A stretch of 64,000 nt of DNA. It comes from Hyphomicrobiales bacterium (lineage in GTDB: Bacteria; Pseudomonadota; Alphaproteobacteria; Rhizobiales; Xanthobacteraceae). Below, one piece after another: positions 12,990 through 55,964 of the stretch. How positions within the stretch are numbered: the stretch's first letter is position 1; every line of letters begins with the position of its first letter. The stretch spans positions 124,001 to 188,000 of the forward strand of contig JAFKKG010000012.1 of the NCBI GenBank assembly GCA_017305715.1. The letters are read 5' to 3'. The notes below the pieces were generated by a model. It ran no database searches, had not been told where the DNA came from, and saw nothing but the letters and a program-made list of their open reading frames with translations. The translations under genes were made by a program, and so were the position numbers.

Positions 12990-14270
12990 GTGGTTGCCAT
13001 TCACATCGTCGACCGGCGGCTGAACCCGGGCAGCAAGAGTCTTGAGAACCGTCAGCGGTTCCTGCGCCGGGCCAAGGCGCTGGTTCAGCAGGCGGTCAAG
13101 AAATCGTCGCATGAACGGGACATCAAGGATGTCCTGGAAGGCGGCGAGGTCAGCATCCCGCTCGACGGCATGGATGAGCCGCGGTTTCGCCGTGAAGGCG
13201 GCACCCGCGACATGGTGCTTCCCGGGAACAAGAAGTTCATCGAAGGCGACATGCTGCCGCGCTCGGGTGGGGGCGGCGGCAAGGCCGGTGGCGCCGGCGA
13301 GGGGGACAGCGAGGATGCGTTCCGCTTCGTGCTGAGCCGCGAGGAGTTCGTCGACCTGTTCCTCGACGACCTCGAACTGCCCGATCTTGCCAAGCGCAAG
13401 CTTGCCGAGGTCGAGAGCGAAGGACTCCGCCGCGCCGGCTTTGCGACCTCCGGCTCGCCGGCAAACATTTCCATCAGCCGCACCGTGAGCCGCGCGATGG
13501 CGCGGCGGGTGGCGTTGCGGCGGCCGAAGCCGGACGAGATCGCGGCGCTCGAGGCCGAACTGCTGGTTTGCGACGACGAGGCGCGCCGCGCCGTATTGCT
13601 GGCCGAGATCGAAGCCCTCAAGGCCAAGGCAAAACGGATTCCGTTCATCGATCCGATTGACATCCGCTATCGGCGGTTCGAGACCACGCCGAAGCCGATC
13701 GCCCAGGCCGTGATGTTCTGCCTGATGGACGTGTCGGGTTCGATGACCGAACACATGAAGGACCTCGCCAAGCGGTTCTACACGCTGCTCTATATTTTCC
13801 TGAAGCGGCGCTATCGCCATGTCGAGATCGTCTTCATCCGGCATACCGACCGCGCCGAGGAGGTCGACGAGGATACGTTCTTCCACGGCCCGGCCTCCGG
13901 CGGCACGCTGGTGTCGAGCGCGCTGCAGGAAATGCACGAGATCGTGCGGTCGCGGTTTCGCCCCGCGGACTGGAACATCTACGCCGCGCAAGCCTCGGAC
14001 GGCGACAATTCCACCTCCGACAGCGAGGTGACCGGGCGGCTGCTGACGGAAAAAATCCTGCCGGTCTGTCAGTTCTTTGCCTATCTCGAGGTCGGCCAGG
14101 ATGCCGGTCTGACCTTCGAAATGCCGGACTCCTCGCTCTGGTCGCTCTATGAGCGGCTGCGCCTCGCCGGTGCGCCATTGTCGATGCGCAAGGTCTGCGA
14201 GCGCAGTGAAATCTTCCCGGTGTTCCACGATCTGTTCCAGCGCCGCGTACGACAGGAAAGGGCACCATGA
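12990..14270 (+). CDS. YeaH/YhbH family protein (DUF444, VWA-like)
   Basis: The 426-aa product is the usual partner of PrkA. It begins with GTG; the next ATG in this area (12982) is in another frame, and VVAIHIVDRRLNPGSKSLENR matches the normal family N terminus. A glycine-rich linker (GGGGGKAGGAGEG) lies near residue 90. At about residue 247 a MIDAS-like DVSGSMTEHMKD begins a von Willebrand A-type fold, with SGGTLVSSAL further on. The family is thought to scaffold or modulate PrkA, but its biochemical role is not settled. It starts 13 bases after prkA and overlaps the SpoVR gene by 4 bases. Confidence 0.93.
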   Translation: MVAIHIVDRRLNPGSKSLENRQRFLRRAKALVQQAVKKSSHERDIKDVLEGGEVSIPLDGMDEPRFRREGGTRDMVLPGNKKFIEGDMLPRSGGGGGKAGGAGEGDSEDAFRFVLSREEFVDLFLDDLELPDLAKRKLAEVESEGLRRAGFATSGSPANISISRTVSRAMARRVALRRPKPDEIAALEAELLVCDDEARRAVLLAEIEALKAKAKRIPFIDPIDIRYRRFETTPKPIAQAVMFCLMDVSGSMTEHMKDLAKRFYTLLYIFLKRRYRHVEIVFIRHTDRAEEVDEDTFFHGPASGGTLVSSALQEMHEIVRSRFRPADWNIYAAQASDGDNSTSDSEVTGRLLTEKILPVCQFFAYLEVGQDAGLTFEMPDSSLWSLYERLRLAGAPLSMRKVCERSEIFPVFHDLFQRRVRQERAP

Positions 14271-15805
14271 CGGGCCAACGGCTGTTTCAGGGTCCCGACT
14301 GGGATTTCCCGACGTTGCAGCGGATCCATGACGCCTGCGAGGAGATCGCGCACTCCGAACTCGGGCTCAATGTCTATCCGAACCAGATCGAGGTGATCAC
14401 GGCAGAACAGATGCTGGACGCCTATTGCTCGGTCGGGATGCCGCTGTTCTACAAGCATTGGTCGTTCGGCAAGCACTTCGCCTATCAGCAGGCTTCTTAT
14501 CGCAAGGGTCTGATGGGCCTTGCCTATGAGATCGTCATTAACTCGTCGCCGTGTATCTCCTATCTGATGGAAGAGAACACCGCGACCATGCAGACGCTGG
14601 TGATCGCGCACGCCGCCTTCGGCCACAATCATTTCTTCAAGAACAATTATCTGTTCAAGCAATGGACAGATGCCGACGGCATCCTCGATTATCTCGACTT
14701 CGCCAAGGCCTATATCGCACAGTGCGAGGACCGTCACGGCCGTCTCGCGGTCGAGCAGACGCTCGATGCCGCGCACGCGCTGATGTCGCATGGTATCAAC
14801 CGCTATCCCGGCAAGAAGCTGCCCGATCTGCGGGTCGAGGAGAAGCGGGCGGCGCAGCGCCGCCAGCACGAAGAAAGCATGTTCAACGATTTGTGGCGGA
14901 CCATTCCGACCGGGCCGGTCAAGAGTGTCCAGACGCTGAGCGCCGAGCGCCGCCGCGCGCTGCTCGGCCTGCCGCAGGAAAACCTGCTGTATTTCCTGGA
15001 AAAGACCGCGCCGCGCCTGCAGCCCTGGCAGCGCGAAGTGCTGCGCATCGTCCGGCACATCGCGCAGTATTTCTATCCGCAGAGCCAGACCAAGGTGATG
15101 AACGAGGGCACCGCGACCTATGTTCACTACCGGATCATGAACCGGCTGCACCAGCAGGGGCAGCTATCCGACGGCAATTTCCTCGAATTCCTGTCCTCGC
15201 ACACCAACGTCGTGTTCCAGCCCGATTTCGACAACAAGTACTTCTCGGGCTTCAACCCCTACGCGCTCGGCTTTGCGATGATGCAGGACATCGAGCGCAT
15301 CGTGACCAAGCCCGAGGACGAGGACCGCGAATGGTTCCCGGATATCGCCGGCAAGGGCGATACGATGGGCGTGCTGCGCGACGTCTGGGCCAATTACCGC
15401 GACGAGAGTTTTGTCAGCCAGTTCCTCTCACCGCGGCTGATGCGGCACTTCCGCATGTTCCATCTGCATGACGACCCGGCGGAGACGGCCGGCATCAAGG
15501 TCGAAGCGATCCATGATGAGCGCGGCTATCGGCGCGTGCGCCGCGCGCTGTCGAGGAGTTACGATGTCGGCTTCATCGACGCCAATATCGAAGTCGTCGA
15601 TGTCGATCTGGCCGGCGACCGGCATCTGATGCTGCGCCACACCGTGCTGAACGGCGCACAGCTCAACGATACCGATGCCAAGCGCGTGCTGCAGCACCTC
15701 GCCGACCTCTGGACCTACAACGTCTCGCTGGTCGAACAGGATACAACTGGCAAGGTGCTGAAGGAATATGTCGCCAACCCGCGAGGGCTCGCCGCGGTGG
15801 CGTAA
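14267..15805 (+). CDS. SpoVR family protein
   Basis: The product is 512 aa, the size of YcgB/SpoVR proteins. The N-terminal part has LGLNVYPNQIEVITAEQMLD and MPLFYKHWSFGK, and the middle has NEGTATYVHYRIMN, a block with conserved His and Glu residues. Bacillus SpoVR acts in spore cortex formation. In non-sporing proteobacteria the family is always found beside PrkA and YeaH and its reaction is not known. The ATGA overlap with the YeaH-type gene shows tight coupling. An imperfect hairpin just downstream (15823-15844) may end the operon. Confidence 0.95.
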   Translation: MTGQRLFQGPDWDFPTLQRIHDACEEIAHSELGLNVYPNQIEVITAEQMLDAYCSVGMPLFYKHWSFGKHFAYQQASYRKGLMGLAYEIVINSSPCISYLMEENTATMQTLVIAHAAFGHNHFFKNNYLFKQWTDADGILDYLDFAKAYIAQCEDRHGRLAVEQTLDAAHALMSHGINRYPGKKLPDLRVEEKRAAQRRQHEESMFNDLWRTIPTGPVKSVQTLSAERRRALLGLPQENLLYFLEKTAPRLQPWQREVLRIVRHIAQYFYPQSQTKVMNEGTATYVHYRIMNRLHQQGQLSDGNFLEFLSSHTNVVFQPDFDNKYFSGFNPYALGFAMMQDIERIVTKPEDEDREWFPDIAGKGDTMGVLRDVWANYRDESFVSQFLSPRLMRHFRMFHLHDDPAETAGIKVEAIHDERGYRRVRRALSRSYDVGFIDANIEVVDVDLAGDRHLMLRHTVLNGAQLNDTDAKRVLQHLADLWTYNVSLVEQDTTGKVLKEYVANPRGLAAVA

Positions 15806-23197: not shown

Positions 23198-23373
23198 CGC
23201 GTGCTCCTTTTTGCCTATTTTGTTGGCGCAATATCGCCGAACGGCGTGGGGCAGGGAAGCCGGTTCCCGGCGGCAGGTGGCGGCGACCAGGGACCGCCAC
23301 AATTGCTGCAAAATCCATTCAGCGCGGGTTCAGGAAACCAGCACTCTTATCGGCGCTGCGAATTCTCGAGAAG

Positions 23374-23403
23374 CATTCTCAAGAAGAACATTCTCAAGAA
23401 GAA
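23374..23403 (+). repeat. Two perfect 15-bp tandem units before the pseudo-caspase gene
   Basis: CATTCTCAAGAAGAA occurs twice back to back, with a degenerate third unit just upstream (23362-23373). The array ends 14 bases before the ATG, within the leader. Copy number could vary by slippage and alter the leader of the mRNA. Confidence 0.8.
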
Positions 23404-23417
23404 AAAGGGTCGTCACC

Positions 23418-25619
23418 ATGGTGCGAATTCTGTGCGCATTGATCCTCGGTCTGGTGTCGCTCGCCTCGCTTCCCGCGCACGCGCAGAATCAGGAAAAGCG
23501 CTTCGCGCTCGTCGTCGGCAATGGCGCCTATCAGGCCGGCCCGTTGCAGACGGCACCGAACGATGCCGGATTGATCGCACAGACATTGCAGGCCGCCGGC
23601 TTTGATGTGATCGGGGCACGCGATCTCGACGGCGAGACGCTCCGCAAATCGTTCCGCGATTTCATCCAGAAAGTGCAGGACGCGGGTCCCAATTCCGTCG
23701 CCTTCGTCTATCTCGCAGGCTATGGCGTGCAGCTCACGGGTGAGAACTACTTCGTGCCGGTCGATGCCAGGATCGCCCGCGACACCGATGTGCCGGTCGA
23801 GGCGATCCGCATCTCCGACTACAGCCATCAACTCTCGGCGTTGCCGATCAAGGCCGGCGTGATCGTGCTCGACGCAGCGCGCAACAATCCGTTCGCCAAG
23901 GAAGGCCAGCCGCTTGCCGGTGGCCTTGCGCTGATCGATCCCGATCCGAAAATGCTGATCGCCTTCAACTCGGCGCCTGGCACCGTCGCCTCCGACGGTG
24001 CGCCGCCCTATGGGCCCTACGCGCAGGCCCTGGCGGAAATGATCCGCACCGGCGGTTTGACCTTGCCCGAAGTGTTCGACCGCGTCCGCCTGCGCGTCAA
24101 CGAAATGACCAAGGGTGCGGAGATTCCATGGGACGCGCACAAGGTCGACGCGCCGTTCCTGTTCTTCGAACGCAAGCCGGATGCGCCACCGGTGCAGGTC
24201 GACGCCGGGCTGCGCACCAGGCCGATCCGCGATTTCCCGGCGCAGGAAGCCTACGCCGCGGCGCTGGAACGCGACACGCTGCAGGCCTACGAGGATTATC
24301 TGCAGGCCTATCCGGGCGATCCGCTGGCCAGGCGCGTGCGCGCGATCGTGGCGGCGCGCCGCGAGGCCATCACCTGGCGGCGCACCTACAGCGCCGACAC
24401 GCCGGATGCCTACTGGTCGTATCTCCACCGCTATCCGCGCGGGCCGCATGCGTTCGACGCGCGGCGCCGGCTTAGCTATCTGTCGGCCGCACTGGAGCCG
24501 CCGCCGCAGTTTGCGCAGATCGTCTATGACGTGCCGCCGCCGCCGCCCGACGAGATCGTCTATGTCGACCGCCCGGTGCTTTACTATGGCGATCCGGTGT
24601 TTGCCTTCGCGCCGCCTCCGCCGCCGCCGGTGTTCTTCCTGCCACCCCCGCCGCCGGACTTCGTCGTGCTGGCGCCGCCGCCGCCCCCGATCGGCCTGTT
24701 CGTGCTGCCGACACCGCTGTTCGTGGCGATGCCCGTCTATGTCGCCGCGCCGGCCTATGTCGTCGCGCCGCCGAATAACATCGTGTTCAACAACATCCAC
24801 AACACGACCGTGATCAACACGGTCATCAACAATCGCAACGCGACGCCGGCGCAGCTTGGCGCGGCCGGGGCAAGGCCGGCGATCGCCGGCGGGCCGGTTT
24901 CCGTGGCGCCGCCGCTGCCGGCGGCGGCCCTGCAACGCGCCAATCTGGCGCGACCGGGCGGTCCGCAAGGTGGTCAGACAGGTCCCGGCGCGGCCATCGG
25001 AGCTCAGGGCGCGAGGCCGAATGCAGCCGCCGCGCCGAATGCCGCGGGCGCTTCCGGAGCGCACGCCCTGCCGGGCGCGAACAATGGACCGCCGCTGCCG
25101 CAGTCGGCGACGGCGCCGGCCAACACGCAGCCCGGCGCCGCGCGGCCTGGCACGAGGCCGAATGCGGTGACGCCCGGCAATCCCGCTGCGGCGATGTCGC
25201 CTGCCAATGCGCAGCCGGGCGCCCCCGGCAAGCCCGCGGCCGCCCCGGCGACAAATTCGCCGGCGACCACGACCGGACCGGTGGGGAGGCAACCGCTCAC
25301 ACATGCCGCGACCGCGCCGGCCGGAAACGTGAAGCCTTTAACCGCGCCGTCGCCGGCGAACCGCGCGACGTCCGCACGGCTGACACCGGCTGCACGTTCG
25401 GCGCCTGCGCATGCTGCGGTGACGACGGCGCCGGTATCCCGGCAACCGCCCCGTGCTGCCGCCGTCCAGCCGCGCCCGGCACCGGCCCCGCGCGTCGCGC
25501 CGCAACCTCGGCCAATGATCCAGGCGCAGCGTGCCCCGCCGCCGCGGATGGCGGCACCGGCGAGGCCCGCGGCGCGGCCGAGCGCGCCGGCATGCCCTCC
25601 CGGCAAGTGCAAACATTGA
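23418..25619 (+). CDS. Exported caspase-fold protein with both catalytic residues replaced, proline/alanine-rich tail
   Basis: The 733-aa product has a signal peptide (MVRILCALILGLVSLASLPA) and then a peptidase C14 caspase-like domain from about residue 28 to 250 (RFALVVGNGAYQ, LQTAPNDAGLIAQTLQAAGF). The usual catalytic AGHG is here AGYG with Tyr102, and the usual LDACRNNPF is LDAARNNPF with Ala154. The His-Cys dyad is therefore lost and the domain should not cut peptides. Two short repeat-like segments follow (EDYLQAYPGDPLARR and WSYLHRYPRGPHAFDARR), as in related rhizobial proteins. Then come a PPPPP-rich part and a long Ala/Pro/Gly tail. The ATG was chosen for the signal peptide. It leads an operon with DUF1800 and DUF1501 genes. 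Confidence 0.85.
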   Translation: MVRILCALILGLVSLASLPAHAQNQEKRFALVVGNGAYQAGPLQTAPNDAGLIAQTLQAAGFDVIGARDLDGETLRKSFRDFIQKVQDAGPNSVAFVYLAGYGVQLTGENYFVPVDARIARDTDVPVEAIRISDYSHQLSALPIKAGVIVLDAARNNPFAKEGQPLAGGLALIDPDPKMLIAFNSAPGTVASDGAPPYGPYAQALAEMIRTGGLTLPEVFDRVRLRVNEMTKGAEIPWDAHKVDAPFLFFERKPDAPPVQVDAGLRTRPIRDFPAQEAYAAALERDTLQAYEDYLQAYPGDPLARRVRAIVAARREAITWRRTYSADTPDAYWSYLHRYPRGPHAFDARRRLSYLSAALEPPPQFAQIVYDVPPPPPDEIVYVDRPVLYYGDPVFAFAPPPPPPVFFLPPPPPDFVVLAPPPPPIGLFVLPTPLFVAMPVYVAAPAYVVAPPNNIVFNNIHNTTVINTVINNRNATPAQLGAAGARPAIAGGPVSVAPPLPAAALQRANLARPGGPQGGQTGPGAAIGAQGARPNAAAAPNAAGASGAHALPGANNGPPLPQSATAPANTQPGAARPGTRPNAVTPGNPAAAMSPANAQPGAPGKPAAAPATNSPATTTGPVGRQPLTHAATAPAGNVKPLTAPSPANRATSARLTPAARSAPAHAAVTTAPVSRQPPRAAAVQPRPAPAPRVAPQPRPMIQAQRAPPPRMAAPARPAARPSAPACPPGKCKH

Positions 25620-25654
25620 GGGCATGAAGCCATGAGCCGATCGGGACAGCATCC

Positions 25655-27199
25655 ATGATCACCACGGCATCGCAGGGATCGCGGACGGTTGTACGGCTCC
25701 TGATCGGCGTGGTCGCGGGGCTGCTGGCCTGCCACCAGCCTGTGCGGGCCGCCGAACTCGCAGCGCAAGACATCGCGCTGCTCGATCGCCTGACCTGGGG
25801 CGTCAACGCCTCAAGCGCGGCGCATCTGCGCGAGGTCGGCAGCGAACGCTGGTTGCAGGAGCAGTTGCATCCGGCCAACGCCGCATTGCCCGCCGCCGTC
25901 CATGCGCAGATCGAGGCGATGCCGGACGTGCATCGCTTCCCGTTCGACATCGCGCTCGCTTTCGACCAGCAGGGAAAATCGGCCAACCAGGTCGCCGATC
26001 CCGAGCAGCGCAAGGCGGCGCAGCAAGTCTATCAGCAGGCCATGAACGACCGGGCCAGGCAGGCCGCGGCCCGCACCATCCTGCACGCGCTCTATGCGCC
26101 GGACCAGTTGCGCGAGCGCCTGACCTGGTTCTGGTTCAACCACTTCAATGTCCACCAGTACAAGTCCAACATCCGTGTGCTGGTCGGCGATTACGAAGAC
26201 CGCGCCATCCGCGCCAACGCGCTCGGCAAGTTCCGCAACCTGCTTGCCGCGACGCTGCATCATCCCGTGATGCTGCGCTATCTCGACAATGCCGACAACG
26301 CAGCCGGCCACCTCAACGAGAATTACGCCCGCGAGATCATGGAACTGCACACCATGGGGGTCGGGTCCGGCTACACCCAGGCCGACGTCGAGGCGCTGGC
26401 GCGGATCCTCACCGGCGTCGGCATCGATCTCAAGCCGGAGGATCCGAAGCTGAAGCCCGAGTTACAATCCCAACTCGTCCGCGAAGGCGCATTCGAGTTC
26501 AATCCGGCGCGCCACGACTATGGCGACAAGACCTTCCTCGGCCATCAGATCAAGGGCCGCGGCTTCGCCGAGGTCGACGAAGCCCTCGATATCCTCTGCC
26601 GTCACCAGGCGACCGCCGTGCGCATCTCCAGGCAGCTTGCGACCTACTTCGTTTCGGACAACCCGCCCGACGCGCTGGTGCAGCACATGGCGCAGACCTT
26701 TCAGAAGACCGATGGCGATATCGCAGCCGTGATGTCGACGCTGGTCCATGCACCGGAATTCGCCGCGAGCCTGAAGGGCGGCGCCAAGTTCAAGGACCCG
26801 ATGCTCTACGTGATGTCGTCGGTGCGGCTGGCCTACGATACCAGGGTCATCCTCAACACGCTGCCGATCCAGAGCTGGCTCAATCGGCTGTCCGAGGGCC
26901 TGTTCAATCACGAGACGCCGGACGGCTATTCGATGCTCTCGGCCGCCTGGAACGGACCCGGGCAGATGATGCTGCGCTTCGAGATCGCCCGCGCGATCGG
27001 CTCGGGCTCGGCTGGGCTATTCAAGCCGAACGAGCCTAATGCCGTCGATCAGCCGGCGTTTCCGCTGGTCATGAACGGTCTCTATTTCAGCAATATCAGG
27101 CAAACGCTGAGTCCGACGACGCTTGCCGCGCTCGACCAGGCGGTCTCGCCGCAGGACTGGAACACGCTGTTCCTGTCGTCACCGGAGTTCATGCACTGA
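25655..27199 (+). CDS. DUF1800 domain-containing exported protein
   Basis: The 514-aa product has an N-terminal hydrophobic segment ending near HQPVRAA. It then has the DUF1800 order: DIALLDRLTWGVNASSAAHL at the start, FWFNHFNVHQYKSNIRV in the middle, then NENYAREIMELHTMGVGSGYTQADVEALARILTG (about residues 220-253) with its conserved ENYARE. The family is large in Proteobacteria and Planctomycetes, is exported and is nearly always next to a DUF1501 gene. The biochemical function is unknown. It begins 35 bases after the pseudo-caspase gene and ends 15 bases before the DUF1501 gene. Confidence 0.93.
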   Translation: MITTASQGSRTVVRLLIGVVAGLLACHQPVRAAELAAQDIALLDRLTWGVNASSAAHLREVGSERWLQEQLHPANAALPAAVHAQIEAMPDVHRFPFDIALAFDQQGKSANQVADPEQRKAAQQVYQQAMNDRARQAAARTILHALYAPDQLRERLTWFWFNHFNVHQYKSNIRVLVGDYEDRAIRANALGKFRNLLAATLHHPVMLRYLDNADNAAGHLNENYAREIMELHTMGVGSGYTQADVEALARILTGVGIDLKPEDPKLKPELQSQLVREGAFEFNPARHDYGDKTFLGHQIKGRGFAEVDEALDILCRHQATAVRISRQLATYFVSDNPPDALVQHMAQTFQKTDGDIAAVMSTLVHAPEFAASLKGGAKFKDPMLYVMSSVRLAYDTRVILNTLPIQSWLNRLSEGLFNHETPDGYSMLSAAWNGPGQMMLRFEIARAIGSGSAGLFKPNEPNAVDQPAFPLVMNGLYFSNIRQTLSPTTLAALDQAVSPQDWNTLFLSSPEFMH

Positions 27200-27214
27200 A
27201 AGGGAGGTTCGCCG

Positions 27215-28408
27215 ATGAACCGCCGCGAACTGATCAAGGCCTTCGCCGCTTCCGCTTCGCTCACCGTCGCCGGGCGGGTCTGGGCGGCGCCCGCAACCGA
27301 CGCGCGCCTGCTCGTCGTGTTCCTGCGCGGCGCCTACGACGCCGCCAATGTGGTGGTGCCCGTCGGCAGCGAGTTTTATTACGCCTCGCGCCCAAGCCTT
27401 GCGATCGCGCGACCCGATGCGGGCAATCCGAATGCGGCGCTGGCGCTCGATGCCGGATGGGGTCTGCATCCGGCGCTGCGCGATTCGATCTATCCGCTCT
27501 GGGCCAAGCGCGAGATCGCCTTCGTTCCGTTCGCCGGCACCAGCGACGATCTCTCGCGCAGCCATTTCGAGACCCAGGACACGATCGAACTCGGGCAATC
27601 GGTCGGCGGCAGCCGCGACTACCGTTCCGGCTTTATGAGCCGGCTGGCGAGCGAGCTGACAAGGGTGAAGCCGATTTCCTTCACCGATCAACTGCCGCTG
27701 ATCTTCCGCGGCCAGACCCAGATCCCCAACATCGGCATTGCCAGCGTCAGCAAGCCCGGCGTCGACGATCGGCAGGCACGGCTGATCAAGCAGATGTATG
27801 CGAAAGGCGATCTGGCCAATTCGGTGTCGGAAGGTTTTCGCGTCCGCGACGACGTCTACAAATCCGTCTCCGAGGAAATGACGGCGGCCAATCGCGGCGC
27901 GGTGTCGCCCCGCGGCTTCGAGCTGTCGGCACGCCGGATCGGCCGCCTGATGCGCGAGCAATTCAACCTCGGCTTCGTCGATGTCGGCGGCTGGGACACC
28001 CACGTCAACCAGGGCGCGGCGACCGGCTATCTCACCGATCGTCTCGGCGAATTGGGCCGCGGGCTCGCCGGCTTCGCCGAAGAGATTGGCCCACCGATGT
28101 GGCGTGACACGGTCGTGGTCGTGATCTCCGAATTCGGACGGACCTTTCGCGAGAACGGCGACCGCGGCACCGATCACGGCCACGGCAGTGTGTATTGGGT
28201 GATGGGGGGCGGCATCAATGGCGGGCGCATGGCCGGCGAACAGATCCAGGTCGCTCAGCCGACGCTGTTCCAGAACCGCGACTATCCGGTGCTGACGGAC
28301 TACAGGGCGTTTTTCGGCGGCCTGATCCAGCACGTTTACGGCTTGCAGCAGGCGAGCCTCGATCGGATTTTTGCCGGCATCAAGCCGAAGGACTTGAACC
28401 TGGTCTAG
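27215..28408 (+). CDS. DUF1501 domain-containing protein, Tat-type signal
   Basis: The 397-aa product starts MNRRELIKAFAASASLTVAG, a twin-arginine signal, so it is probably exported folded. DUF1501 proteins belong to the alkaline phosphatase/sulfatase-like fold. LLVVFLRGAYDAANVVVP, VDVGGWDTHVNQG and VVVISEFGRTFRENGDRGTDHGHG (about residues 302-325) are the family marks, with metal-site-like Asp and His residues. The natural substrate is unknown. A strong SD (GGGAGG) lies 7 bases before the ATG. Its TAG stop shares the bases CTAG with the stop of the convergent peptidase gene. Confidence 0.93.
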   Translation: MNRRELIKAFAASASLTVAGRVWAAPATDARLLVVFLRGAYDAANVVVPVGSEFYYASRPSLAIARPDAGNPNAALALDAGWGLHPALRDSIYPLWAKREIAFVPFAGTSDDLSRSHFETQDTIELGQSVGGSRDYRSGFMSRLASELTRVKPISFTDQLPLIFRGQTQIPNIGIASVSKPGVDDRQARLIKQMYAKGDLANSVSEGFRVRDDVYKSVSEEMTAANRGAVSPRGFELSARRIGRLMREQFNLGFVDVGGWDTHVNQGAATGYLTDRLGELGRGLAGFAEEIGPPMWRDTVVVVISEFGRTFRENGDRGTDHGHGSVYWVMGGGINGGRMAGEQIQVAQPTLFQNRDYPVLTDYRAFFGGLIQHVYGLQQASLDRIFAGIKPKDLNLV

Positions 28409-29379
28409 ATCTTCGACGCCATGTCCGCGATCGCCTTCATCACGGCGTCGCGGACGCCGGGATCGTACAGCGTGTGGCCGGCGCCTTCGACGAAGCGAAT
28501 CTCGGCCTCCGGCCATACCGCGGCCAGCGCATGTGAGGTCGCGGGCGGACACAGCAGATCATAGCGTCCCTGCACGATGATGCCGGGAATGCCTTCGAGC
28601 CTGCCGGCCTCGTCCATCAGCTGGTTCGGCCTCATGAAGCAGTCGTTGGCAAAGTAATGCGCTTCCATGAAGGGCGTTGCGGGCAGCGCGCGCGACGAAT
28701 TGATGGGGTCAAGCCGGCCACGGTTCGGTGTGTGCTCGGAGAGAATGCGCTCGGTTTCGCCCCACGCCCGCGCCGCGGGACCATGCACGGTAATGTCAGG
28801 ATCGAGGATGCGACGGAAATAAGCCTCGATCGGTTGCGCGCGTTCGGCGGGCGGCAACACGTTGATAAAGTCCGCATGCAGCGCGGGATAGAAGCGCGGC
28901 AGCACCTCGAGAAATCCATCCTCGATTTCCTTGCGGGTTCCCAGAAGCGTCGCGCGCAGCACGAGCCCGGTGACGCGGTGGGGATAGGCCTGCGCATAGG
29001 CCAGCGCCAGCGTCGCGCCCCAGGAGCCGCCGACCACCATCCAGCGTTCGAATCCGAATTTTTCACGGATCAATTCCATGTCCGCGATCAGATGCGGCAG
29101 CGTATTGTGTTCGCGGCGGCCCTTGGGCCGGCTGCGGCCGGCGCCGCGCTGGTCGAACAGCACGGCATGGAATCGTTCAGGGTCGAACAGCCGGCGGTGA
29201 TCGGGCTGGCAGCCGCTGCCCGGCCCGCCATGCAGATAGACCGCCGGGATACCGCCGGCGCGGCCGACGCTTTCGACATAGACGTCGTGGCCGTCGCCGA
29301 CCACGAGTTGCTCCGAGGTCAGCGGGGCAAACGGATCGGCGCGCTTGGCGGATTTTCCGGCGTCGGCGTCAGGCGCCAT
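28405..29379 (-). CDS. pip: Proline iminopeptidase (S33 family) at the end of the pqq operon
   Basis: The 324-aa product is an alpha/beta hydrolase that removes N-terminal proline. HGGPGSG (residues 50-56) forms the oxyanion hole, GGSWGA holds the nucleophile Ser119, and GRYDLLCPP and GAGHTLYDPG supply the Asp and His. There is no signal peptide, so it is cytoplasmic. The ATG at 29379 lies inside the end of pqqE, an 11-base overlap, so the gene is translated as part of the pqq transcript. The longer open frame reaches further into pqqE and was rejected. It could take part in peptide trimming of PqqA; that is inference. Confidence 0.92.
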   Translation of the reverse strand: MAPDADAGKSAKRADPFAPLTSEQLVVGDGHDVYVESVGRAGGIPAVYLHGGPGSGCQPDHRRLFDPERFHAVLFDQRGAGRSRPKGRREHNTLPHLIADMELIREKFGFERWMVVGGSWGATLALAYAQAYPHRVTGLVLRATLLGTRKEIEDGFLEVLPRFYPALHADFINVLPPAERAQPIEAYFRRILDPDITVHGPAARAWGETERILSEHTPNRGRLDPINSSRALPATPFMEAHYFANDCFMRPNQLMDEAGRLEGIPGIIVQGRYDLLCPPATSHALAAVWPEAEIRFVEGAGHTLYDPGVRDAVMKAIADMASKI

Positions 29380-55781: not shown

Positions 55782-55964
55782 ATGTCATCCCCCGAGGAGT
55801 TGGCCTTTGTCATCGGCCGCTGGCTGCGGCCCTTCGTCGTCATCCTGAATGTGGGGCGTCGCCTGGGCTTCTGGCCGCCATCCCGACCTGAACTGGCCCT
55901 GAATCAGCATCGACCGGCGACTTCGGGCGCTCTGCCGAGGCGGAGCAAATTTGAGCTTGTCTGA
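55782..55964 (+). CDS. Small protein related to the frame at 57185
   Basis: The 60-aa frame starts MSSPEELAFVIGRWLRPFVV. The frame at 57185 starts MSFPEQLTLVVGRRLRPIVT, and about 16 of the first 28 residues agree, with conservative changes (E/Q, I/V) at many of the others. That argues that both are or were translated. No clear SD is seen. It ends 33 bases before the bicupin gene. The function is unknown. Confidence 0.5.
   Translation: MSSPEELAFVIGRWLRPFVVILNVGRRLGFWPPSRPELALNQHRPATSGALPRRSKFELV

Follow-up and report, generated by a model that had tools for sequence, protein, structure and literature searches.

A rare promoter box common to dead caspase and DUF1800 genes suggests a co-regulated envelope-response module in Bradyrhizobium

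Dead caspases are numerous in Alphaproteobacteria, and pairs of DUF1800 and DUF1501 genes are widespread. In a 64,000-nucleotide stretch of a Hyphomicrobiales genome (contig JAFKKG010000012.1, positions 124,001 to 188,000; this whole stretch is called the window), a gene for a caspase-fold protein without its catalytic dyad, a pseudo-caspase, stands directly before such a pair. The genome measures 7.45 Mb and its closest named relatives are Bradyrhizobium, with loci at 88-94% identity. What do these proteins do? In the literature covered by our search (titles and the starts of abstracts among the matches listed, with subscription papers thinly covered) we found no function for alphaproteobacterial dead caspases or for DUF1800-DUF1501 pairs, and no paper joining DUF1800 or DUF1501 with a caspase. 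According to the original prediction, a dead, long-tailed caspase leading such a pair is not known to have been described; the combination still appears undescribed in that literature, although the type of protein is known from the accessible text of PMC6426788. Here we report that a rare promoter box, TTCA-N7-TTCA, appears to be common to the pseudo-caspase genes and to DUF1800 genes that lie far from them, which is the new element of this work and the first testable clue to the role of all three proteins. We lean, with modest confidence, towards reading the locus as a co-regulated envelope-response module whose box would be bound by a response regulator, most likely FeuP of the FeuQ-FeuP pair or a close relative.

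The comparison draws on two clades. Among 265 genomes of the genus Bradyrhizobium, 57 have a DUF1800 match at E 1e-90 or better, and the flanks of all 57 were fetched. Clade A consists of 26 genomes whose DUF1800 protein is at least 86% identical to that of the window. Clade B consists of 31 genomes, 30 of them at 76-83% identity and one in which the gene is present as two fragments at 77-78%. We call a clade-A locus testable when its contig reaches at least 2600 bases upstream of DUF1800; in all 18 testable loci of the 26 the pseudo-caspase gene immediately precedes DUF1800, with a split frame in L083. The order is kept in 18 of 18 close relatives and is therefore not an accident of one genome. 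Eight clade-A assemblies (L084, L086, L088, L090, L091, L092, L094 and L098) end less than 210 bases upstream of DUF1800, probably within the GC-rich tail of the caspase gene, and draft assemblies may miss links between the caspase and the DUF genes.

The box was first seen when upstream regions were aligned by eye, and the counts use gene starts anchored on the alignment. A perfect box is present in 118 of 135 distinct stretches upstream of caspase genes and in 30 of 30 upstream of the unlinked clade-B DUF1800 genes, and paralogous DUF1800 genes have it in 14 of 30 cases, with one mismatch in 10 more; the clade-A DUF1800 genes that follow a caspase have it in none of 22 upstream regions. Other genes of the same loci served as controls: 10 of 1253 have a perfect box and 92 more have one mismatch. 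The spacing is specific as well. Other gaps, from 3 to 14 bases, occur in at most 6 of the 135 caspase and at most 1 of the 30 clade-B upstream regions, and only the 7-base gap is enriched. Eight caspase genes of this genome that encode an intact His-Cys dyad have no perfect box; one of the eight has a box with a single mismatch.

Could shared descent of the upstream regions account for these counts? We masked the box and grouped the upstream stretches by alignability. The box is found in 16 of 25 caspase groups, judged by the majority within each group, and in 14 of 14 clade-B groups. Because it is kept across groups that cannot be aligned with one another, shared descent of the flanks fails to account for the box at caspase and clade-B DUF1800 genes. 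A stricter form of the box occurs 147 times in 2.42 Mb (189 partly overlapping loci, with some genes counted more than once), and 111 of these lie near predicted starts: 79 caspase, 26 DUF1800 and 6 other. In 464 kb of the window's own genome, both strands taken together, there are 5 strict and 11 loose boxes. Four of the loose boxes are intergenic and precede a gene start, as against 0-3 for other gaps; the caspase's own box falls outside those four because the simple caller starts the caspase gene too early. Among nine caspase loci on plasmids, the box lies upstream in 6 of 6 from Rhizobium, and in Methylocapsa (L409) it sits at the annotated start.

Several further observations touch the box. 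One of the four genes with an intergenic box in the window's genome codes for a product that begins like a signal peptide and ends in a proline-rich tail. A protein of this description at L426 (12798-14219), with a strict box 91 nt upstream of the start, is possibly a further member of the regulon. In the window itself, positions 23363-23405, between the box and the caspase start, hold three near-identical copies of TTCTC(G/A)AGAAG, of which relatives have at most one by eye. A second box-like match at 55890-55904 on the minus strand has no clear gene start behind it and is within chance.

Which regulator might read the box? A search of the text of 5.39 million papers for six spellings of the motif returned PMC3616915 only. 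The accessible part of that paper places TTCA-N7-TTCA upstream of 12 Sinorhizobium meliloti genes, of which five depend on FeuP, and proposes that FeuP binds there; among the genes that FeuP activates is ndvA, which encodes the cyclic glucan exporter. The same motif lies upstream of the window's three genes at 23317-23332. A LexA (SOS) site, and with it a module that answers DNA damage, is a very improbable reading. GTTC-N7-GTTC is the core of the alphaproteobacterial LexA site, and 58 of 133 caspase upstream regions contain it perfectly. The lexA promoters of the same genomes argue against it: all 28 readable loci of 30 have GTTC-N7-GTTC, and the base that follows the first half-site is C, G or T in 27 of them and A in one (L377). 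In the caspase box both half-sites are followed by A and a half-site often reads ATTC, which fits TTCA-N7-TTCA better by the counts above. This difference in the flanks of the half-sites, which in L377 concerns the second half only, is why the LexA reading was dropped.

We also compared the box with the literature on CenR, ChvI and BvrR (PMC9275681, PMC9561847, PMC9731502 and PMC9491525, each in its accessible part). The motifs reported there for ChvI have other letters than the box, and ChvI was set aside, as was BvrR, for which those parts spell out no motif. Another regulator of the OmpR family, CenR for example, could be imagined at the box in place of FeuP: its motif TGA-N8-TGA (PMC9275681, accessible part) repeats with an equal 11-base period and fits the box when this is read on the other strand, and its targets are envelope genes. 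However, CenR sites are co-directional with transcription in 28 of 31 cases according to the same source, and here only the reverse strand matches, whereas the candidate FeuP motif agrees with the box letter for letter. We therefore rejected CenR, and think binding by it or another such regulator unlikely.

In the model we favor, a response regulator that binds TTCA-N7-TTCA would switch on a dead, exported caspase-fold protein together with the DUF1800-DUF1501 pair. In the sister clade B the pseudo-caspase, where present, and the pair would be separate transcription units, each with its own box. In clade A the pair lies directly behind the caspase; since it has no box of its own and the gaps are short (in the window, 35 bases from caspase to DUF1800 and 15 from DUF1800 to DUF1501), it would be read from the boxed caspase promoter. 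Co-transcription of the three genes is plausible. In a simple scan of 23200-28600 the one terminator-like site, at 24619-24632, falls within the caspase gene, against a shuffle mean of 3.3, and no promoter of the sigma-70 type was found; with no terminator or promoter signal between the genes, nothing there speaks against a single transcript. FeuP binding and co-transcription are what we infer from the arrangement of box and genes. A rare box that persists when the genes are far apart would join caspase and pair into one testable regulon.

Within such a module the p20 domain may serve to bind without cutting, in the periplasm, a binding role being the default for a non-catalytic fold under selection, and the proline-rich tail with its terminal cysteines may reach or anchor in the envelope. 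The model builds on points read from sequence: no readable member of the sampled family has the dyad, selection is purifying, the box occurs with a specific spacing, the genes are found both linked and unlinked, and the pair was lost repeatedly. A bolder version is quite improbable as it stands: signaling of the FeuQ-FeuP type would induce the dead caspase, whose emptied p20 pocket would bind uncut periplasmic peptides, antimicrobial or from a host, and pass its state to envelope-altering DUF1800 and DUF1501 proteins, as one regulon whether linked or not, fused into an operon three separate times.

How constant is the association of the three genes? A pseudo-caspase at 67% identity or more is present in 35 of 38 chosen genomes of the genus, the exceptions being G015, G163 and G185. 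The window's copy lies at a locus marked by a downstream radical-SAM gene and neighbors that we take, from their sequence, to be pqq genes. Outside the lineage with this pqq locus, the Bradyrhizobium caspase gene is usually found between the DNA polymerase III alpha gene and rpsB-tsf, without the pair (19 loci, L171-L189). Within the lineage, L170, L190, L200, L206 and L208 have the same neighbors on both sides and no pair; L211 is also pairless and shares the right-hand neighbors only; and L204 keeps a remnant stretch that matches DUF1800 with 86 bits. In a caspase tree of 71 of 131 rows L103, which has the trio, branches first within the clade above L211, and pairless genomes are nested. By this tree the caspase was kept while the pair was lost two to four times; the lower bound is two because the order of L204, L208 and the pair L200 and L206 at their common fork is left open. 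These patterns support the view that the pseudo-caspase is the more constant part in Bradyrhizobium and the DUF pair the optional one.

The trio also occurs in other lineages. In Methylorubrum rhodinum (L251) the caspase, DUF1800 and DUF1501 genes stand in line, with Tyr-Ala at the dyad places by alignment; in two relatives, L247 and L250, the caspase stands in matching surroundings, without the pair. A third trio lies on plasmid p_1 of Phyllobacterium sp. 628 (L405). Directly behind it, on the opposite strand, are genes for a histidine kinase and an OmpR-type response regulator (13143-15160), which we set aside as support for a regulatory link because the box is absent there. In a DUF1800 tree of 46 hand-picked rows the three trio lineages do not group together, and M. 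rhodinum is on a long branch. This suggests that the trio arose separately in three lineages; the alternative is an old trio lost many times. Across 111 Methylobacterium-type genomes the caspase is found in 39, DUF1800 in 41 and both in 10; judged by coordinates they are adjacent in G1049 alone, a genome that shares an identical DUF1800 with M. rhodinum, and in the other nine they are far apart or on other contigs. Other genes also occur beside pseudo-caspases: a MipA/OmpV gene follows in the Rhizobium plasmids L406, L407, L408 and L417 (by Pfam for L406 only), curli genes lie upstream in L408 and L417, and in Methylobacterium sp. WSM2598 (L254, 6830-9916) the same-strand gene that follows is presumably recA.

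The original prediction as a whole is partly supported. Its suggestion that the dead caspase may be a binding scaffold for the two exported proteins is one of two rivals to a co-regulated module that have to be weighed. The other is that the genes are neighbors by accident, with unrelated functions, the pair having landed behind the caspase promoter in one lineage. The unlinked loci fit this. Where upstream caspases were looked for, we found them in the clade-A loci, M. rhodinum and Phyllobacterium, but in none of 47 testable clade-B and other-family loci (0/28 of 31 and 0/19 of 22, respectively), nor beside any of 14 paralogous pairs, at about 40% identity or less. The pairless relatives at the pqq locus fit it too, as does the lack of any excess of co-occurrence in the 111 Methylobacterium-type genomes, where caspase and DUF1800 coincide slightly less often than expected (Fisher p 0.10). 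Against accident stand the rare box common to unlinked caspase and DUF1800 genes in Bradyrhizobium and the adjacency of caspase and pair in three families whose DUF1800 genes do not group in the tree. We consider accident rather unlikely. In the scaffold reading proper, the dead caspase would bind the DUF1800 and DUF1501 proteins and place them in the envelope. The purifying selection on p20, the helical repeats, the long proline-rich tail and the recurrent adjacency are what such a protein might display. Yet 3 of 20 clade-B genomes searched (G015, G163 and G185) have the pair without a caspase match above 44% identity, 29 of the 39 caspase-bearing Methylobacterium-type genomes have no close DUF1800, and the pair has been lost repeatedly while the caspase stayed. 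Such frequent separation and loss argue against an obligate three-protein complex, and we doubt the scaffold. The tie between caspase and pair thus holds in the box and in three families, and fails in the many pseudo-caspases that have no pair and, at testable loci outside the lineage, in pairs that have no caspase.

Besides the Methylobacterium-type counts, several results weigh against a co-regulated module. No perfect box is present in 17 of the 135 caspase upstream regions, four Mesorhizobium loci among them, nor at the plasmid caspases of Phyllobacterium (L405) and Chelatococcus (L410); the Phyllobacterium trio is thus without a box, and a break in the tail makes its caspase frame stop early. 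Among DUF1800 genes of other families a perfect box precedes 3 of 47, one of these being the clade-B fragment L131, with one mismatch in 18 more. By alignable groups the box is found in 3 of 23 for other DUF1800 genes, and in the paralogous pair 2 of 5 groups have it. For the DUF pair the box is thus weak evidence beyond Bradyrhizobium. The controls are gene neighborhoods rather than whole genomes, with gene starts from a simple caller, and the Sinorhizobium FeuP site is itself a prediction (PMC3616915, accessible part).

The loss of the dyad is a property of the whole family. Our sample comprises 154 distinct p20 sequences from the fetched loci together with the window's own. At 58% identity or more there are 139 rows (the window gene is counted twice), of which three are fragments without the catalytic columns and 136 are readable. 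The places of the catalytic His and Cys read Tyr-Ala in 122, Tyr-Gly in 9, Gln-Ala in 3, Tyr-Ser in 1 and Val-Ala in 1. An intact His-Cys dyad occurs in 0 of the 136, and the expectation that close homologs would lack it is borne out. All 16 rows below 45% identity are His-Cys, and of the 15 Peptidase_C14 matches in this genome the eight strongest (L001-L008), which were read, are all His-Cys as well. Most simply, the dyad would have been lost once, before the relatives in Bradyrhizobium, Afipia, Rhodopseudomonas, Mesorhizobium and Methylobacterium split. The ratio of mean nonsynonymous (dN) to mean synonymous (dS) divergence is 0.098 for p20, 0.16 for the helical part, 0.19 for the proline-rich part and 0.31 for the tail; these values were averaged by the simple Nei-Gojobori method, uncorrected for phylogeny, from 171 pairs (166 in the case of the tail) of 19 pqq-locus genes. 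By this measure p20 is under purifying selection. In two Bradyrhizobium loci, L083 (4402-6899) and L244 (6881-8118), p20 is split over two frames, by a broken gene or a sequencing error.

The features of the locus are collected in Table 1. The gene coordinates, strands and gaps first given for the locus are exact, and the codons read at the two catalytic places confirm the Tyr and Ala of the original prediction in a protein that matches Peptidase_C14 at E 1.8e-32. The window protein therefore lacks the His-Cys dyad of an active C14 peptidase. The 733 residues run from a signal-peptide-like start, by which we judge the protein to be exported, through p20, the helical repeats, a proline-rich segment and a variable tail to a terminal Cys pair. 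Beyond p20 there is no Pfam match, and no p10 domain was seen, although no search aimed at it was made. In 16 chosen proteins the architecture past p20 is kept: two helical repeats, a proline-rich hydrophobic stretch, an NIHN motif and a tail of variable length. The motif counts in the table refer to 88 complete proteins, L001 and perhaps others among them being His-Cys paralogs, and exclude 70 incomplete sequences. A structure predicted for p20 and the helices has a mean predicted local distance difference test score (pLDDT) of 62.8, with the helical repeat segment modeled as helices at a block pLDDT of 74-91; in Foldseek it comes closest to MALT1 chains (E 3.2e-7), and it also matches caspases.

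Table 1. Features of the pseudo-caspase, DUF1800 and DUF1501 locus, in window coordinates
Feature	Position	Strand	Remarks
Pseudo-orthocaspase gene (Tyr-Ala type)	23418..25619	+	733 aa; Pfam Peptidase_C14
DUF1800 protein gene	25655..27199	+	514 aa; signal-like N-terminus by sequence inspection
DUF1501 protein gene	27215..28408	+	397 aa; start MNRRELIKAF like a twin-arginine signal, by sequence inspection
Ribosome-binding-like AAAGGGAGG		+	Precedes DUF1501 gene; by sequence inspection
Promoter box ATTCAGCGCGGGTTCA	23317..23332	+	TTCA-N7-TTCA direct repeat, 11-base period; ~100 nt before caspase start codon
Caspase p20 domain	23496..24137	+	Residues 27-240; PF00656, E 1.8e-32
Tyr102 codon TAT	23721..23723	+	Place of catalytic His (AGYG)
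Ala154 codon GCG	23877..23879	+	Place of catalytic Cys (LDAAR)
Conserved helical repeat segment	24249..24473	+	Residues 278-352, AYWSYL..RYP..DARRRL; 16-protein alignment; no Pfam match
NNIVFNNIHNTTVINTVINN motif	24774..24833	+	After Pro-rich hydrophobic segment; regular expression matched in 43/88 complete proteins
C-terminal CPPGKC	25593..25610	+	Terminal Cys pair in 61/88 complete proteins

The genes that follow the caspase are an adjacent, co-directional DUF1800 (Pfam E 5.4e-132) and DUF1501 (5.2e-41) pair. None of the three proteins has an NCBIfam match, and none matches a PADLOC model up to E 0.01, on which ground a reading in terms of cell death or defense was dropped. The predicted structure of the DUF1501 protein, at a mean pLDDT of 41.2, is too low for a structure search; among solved structures there is no match for DUF1501, and the one match for DUF1800 is meaningless (E 0.69). 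Upstream, on the opposite strand, are a 261-codon frame (no Pfam match in the last 221 codons, which were scanned), a pyridine-nucleotide oxidoreductase with ferredoxin domains and a POR-type oxidoreductase. Downstream and convergent are genes for an alpha/beta hydrolase and then the radical-SAM protein. No RNA family reaches the gathering threshold in the window.

How does the locus compare with known systems? It shares with the DUF1800-DUF1501 pairs beside bacterial chitin synthases (PMC5122149, accessible part) both families, a predicted operon and a twin-arginine signal on DUF1501; here a pseudo-caspase leads the unit, and the word caspase does not occur in the main text of that paper. With the FeuP regulon of S. 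meliloti (PMC3616915 and PMC12714254, accessible parts) it shares the promoter motif, ndvA being a target there; those parts do not name a pseudo-caspase or DUF1800-DUF1501 as targets, and the site here is a candidate only. The animal pseudo-caspase FLIP(L) (PMC7586951, accessible part) likewise retains the caspase fold without catalysis. The caspase-fold protein itself resembles the pseudo-orthocaspases of Rhizobiales described by Klemencic et al. in 2019 (PMC6426788), of which it is a further member. In the accessible part of that paper Tyr-Ser, Tyr-Ala and Phe-Ser are common substitutions in Rhizobiales, and the Tyr-Ser and Tyr-Ala types have prolonged C-termini lacking domains. The window protein agrees with the Tyr-Ala type: its p20 domain has Tyr and Ala in place of the catalytic His and Cys, Pfam shows no p10, which the described proteins lack too, and the long C-terminus is without a known domain. 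The neighboring genes, the terminal Cys pair, the helical repeats and the promoter box are not mentioned in that part. Its title ties pseudo-orthocaspases to photosynthesis; the box described here suggests an envelope regulon, and so points to envelope signaling rather than to cell death or photosynthesis.

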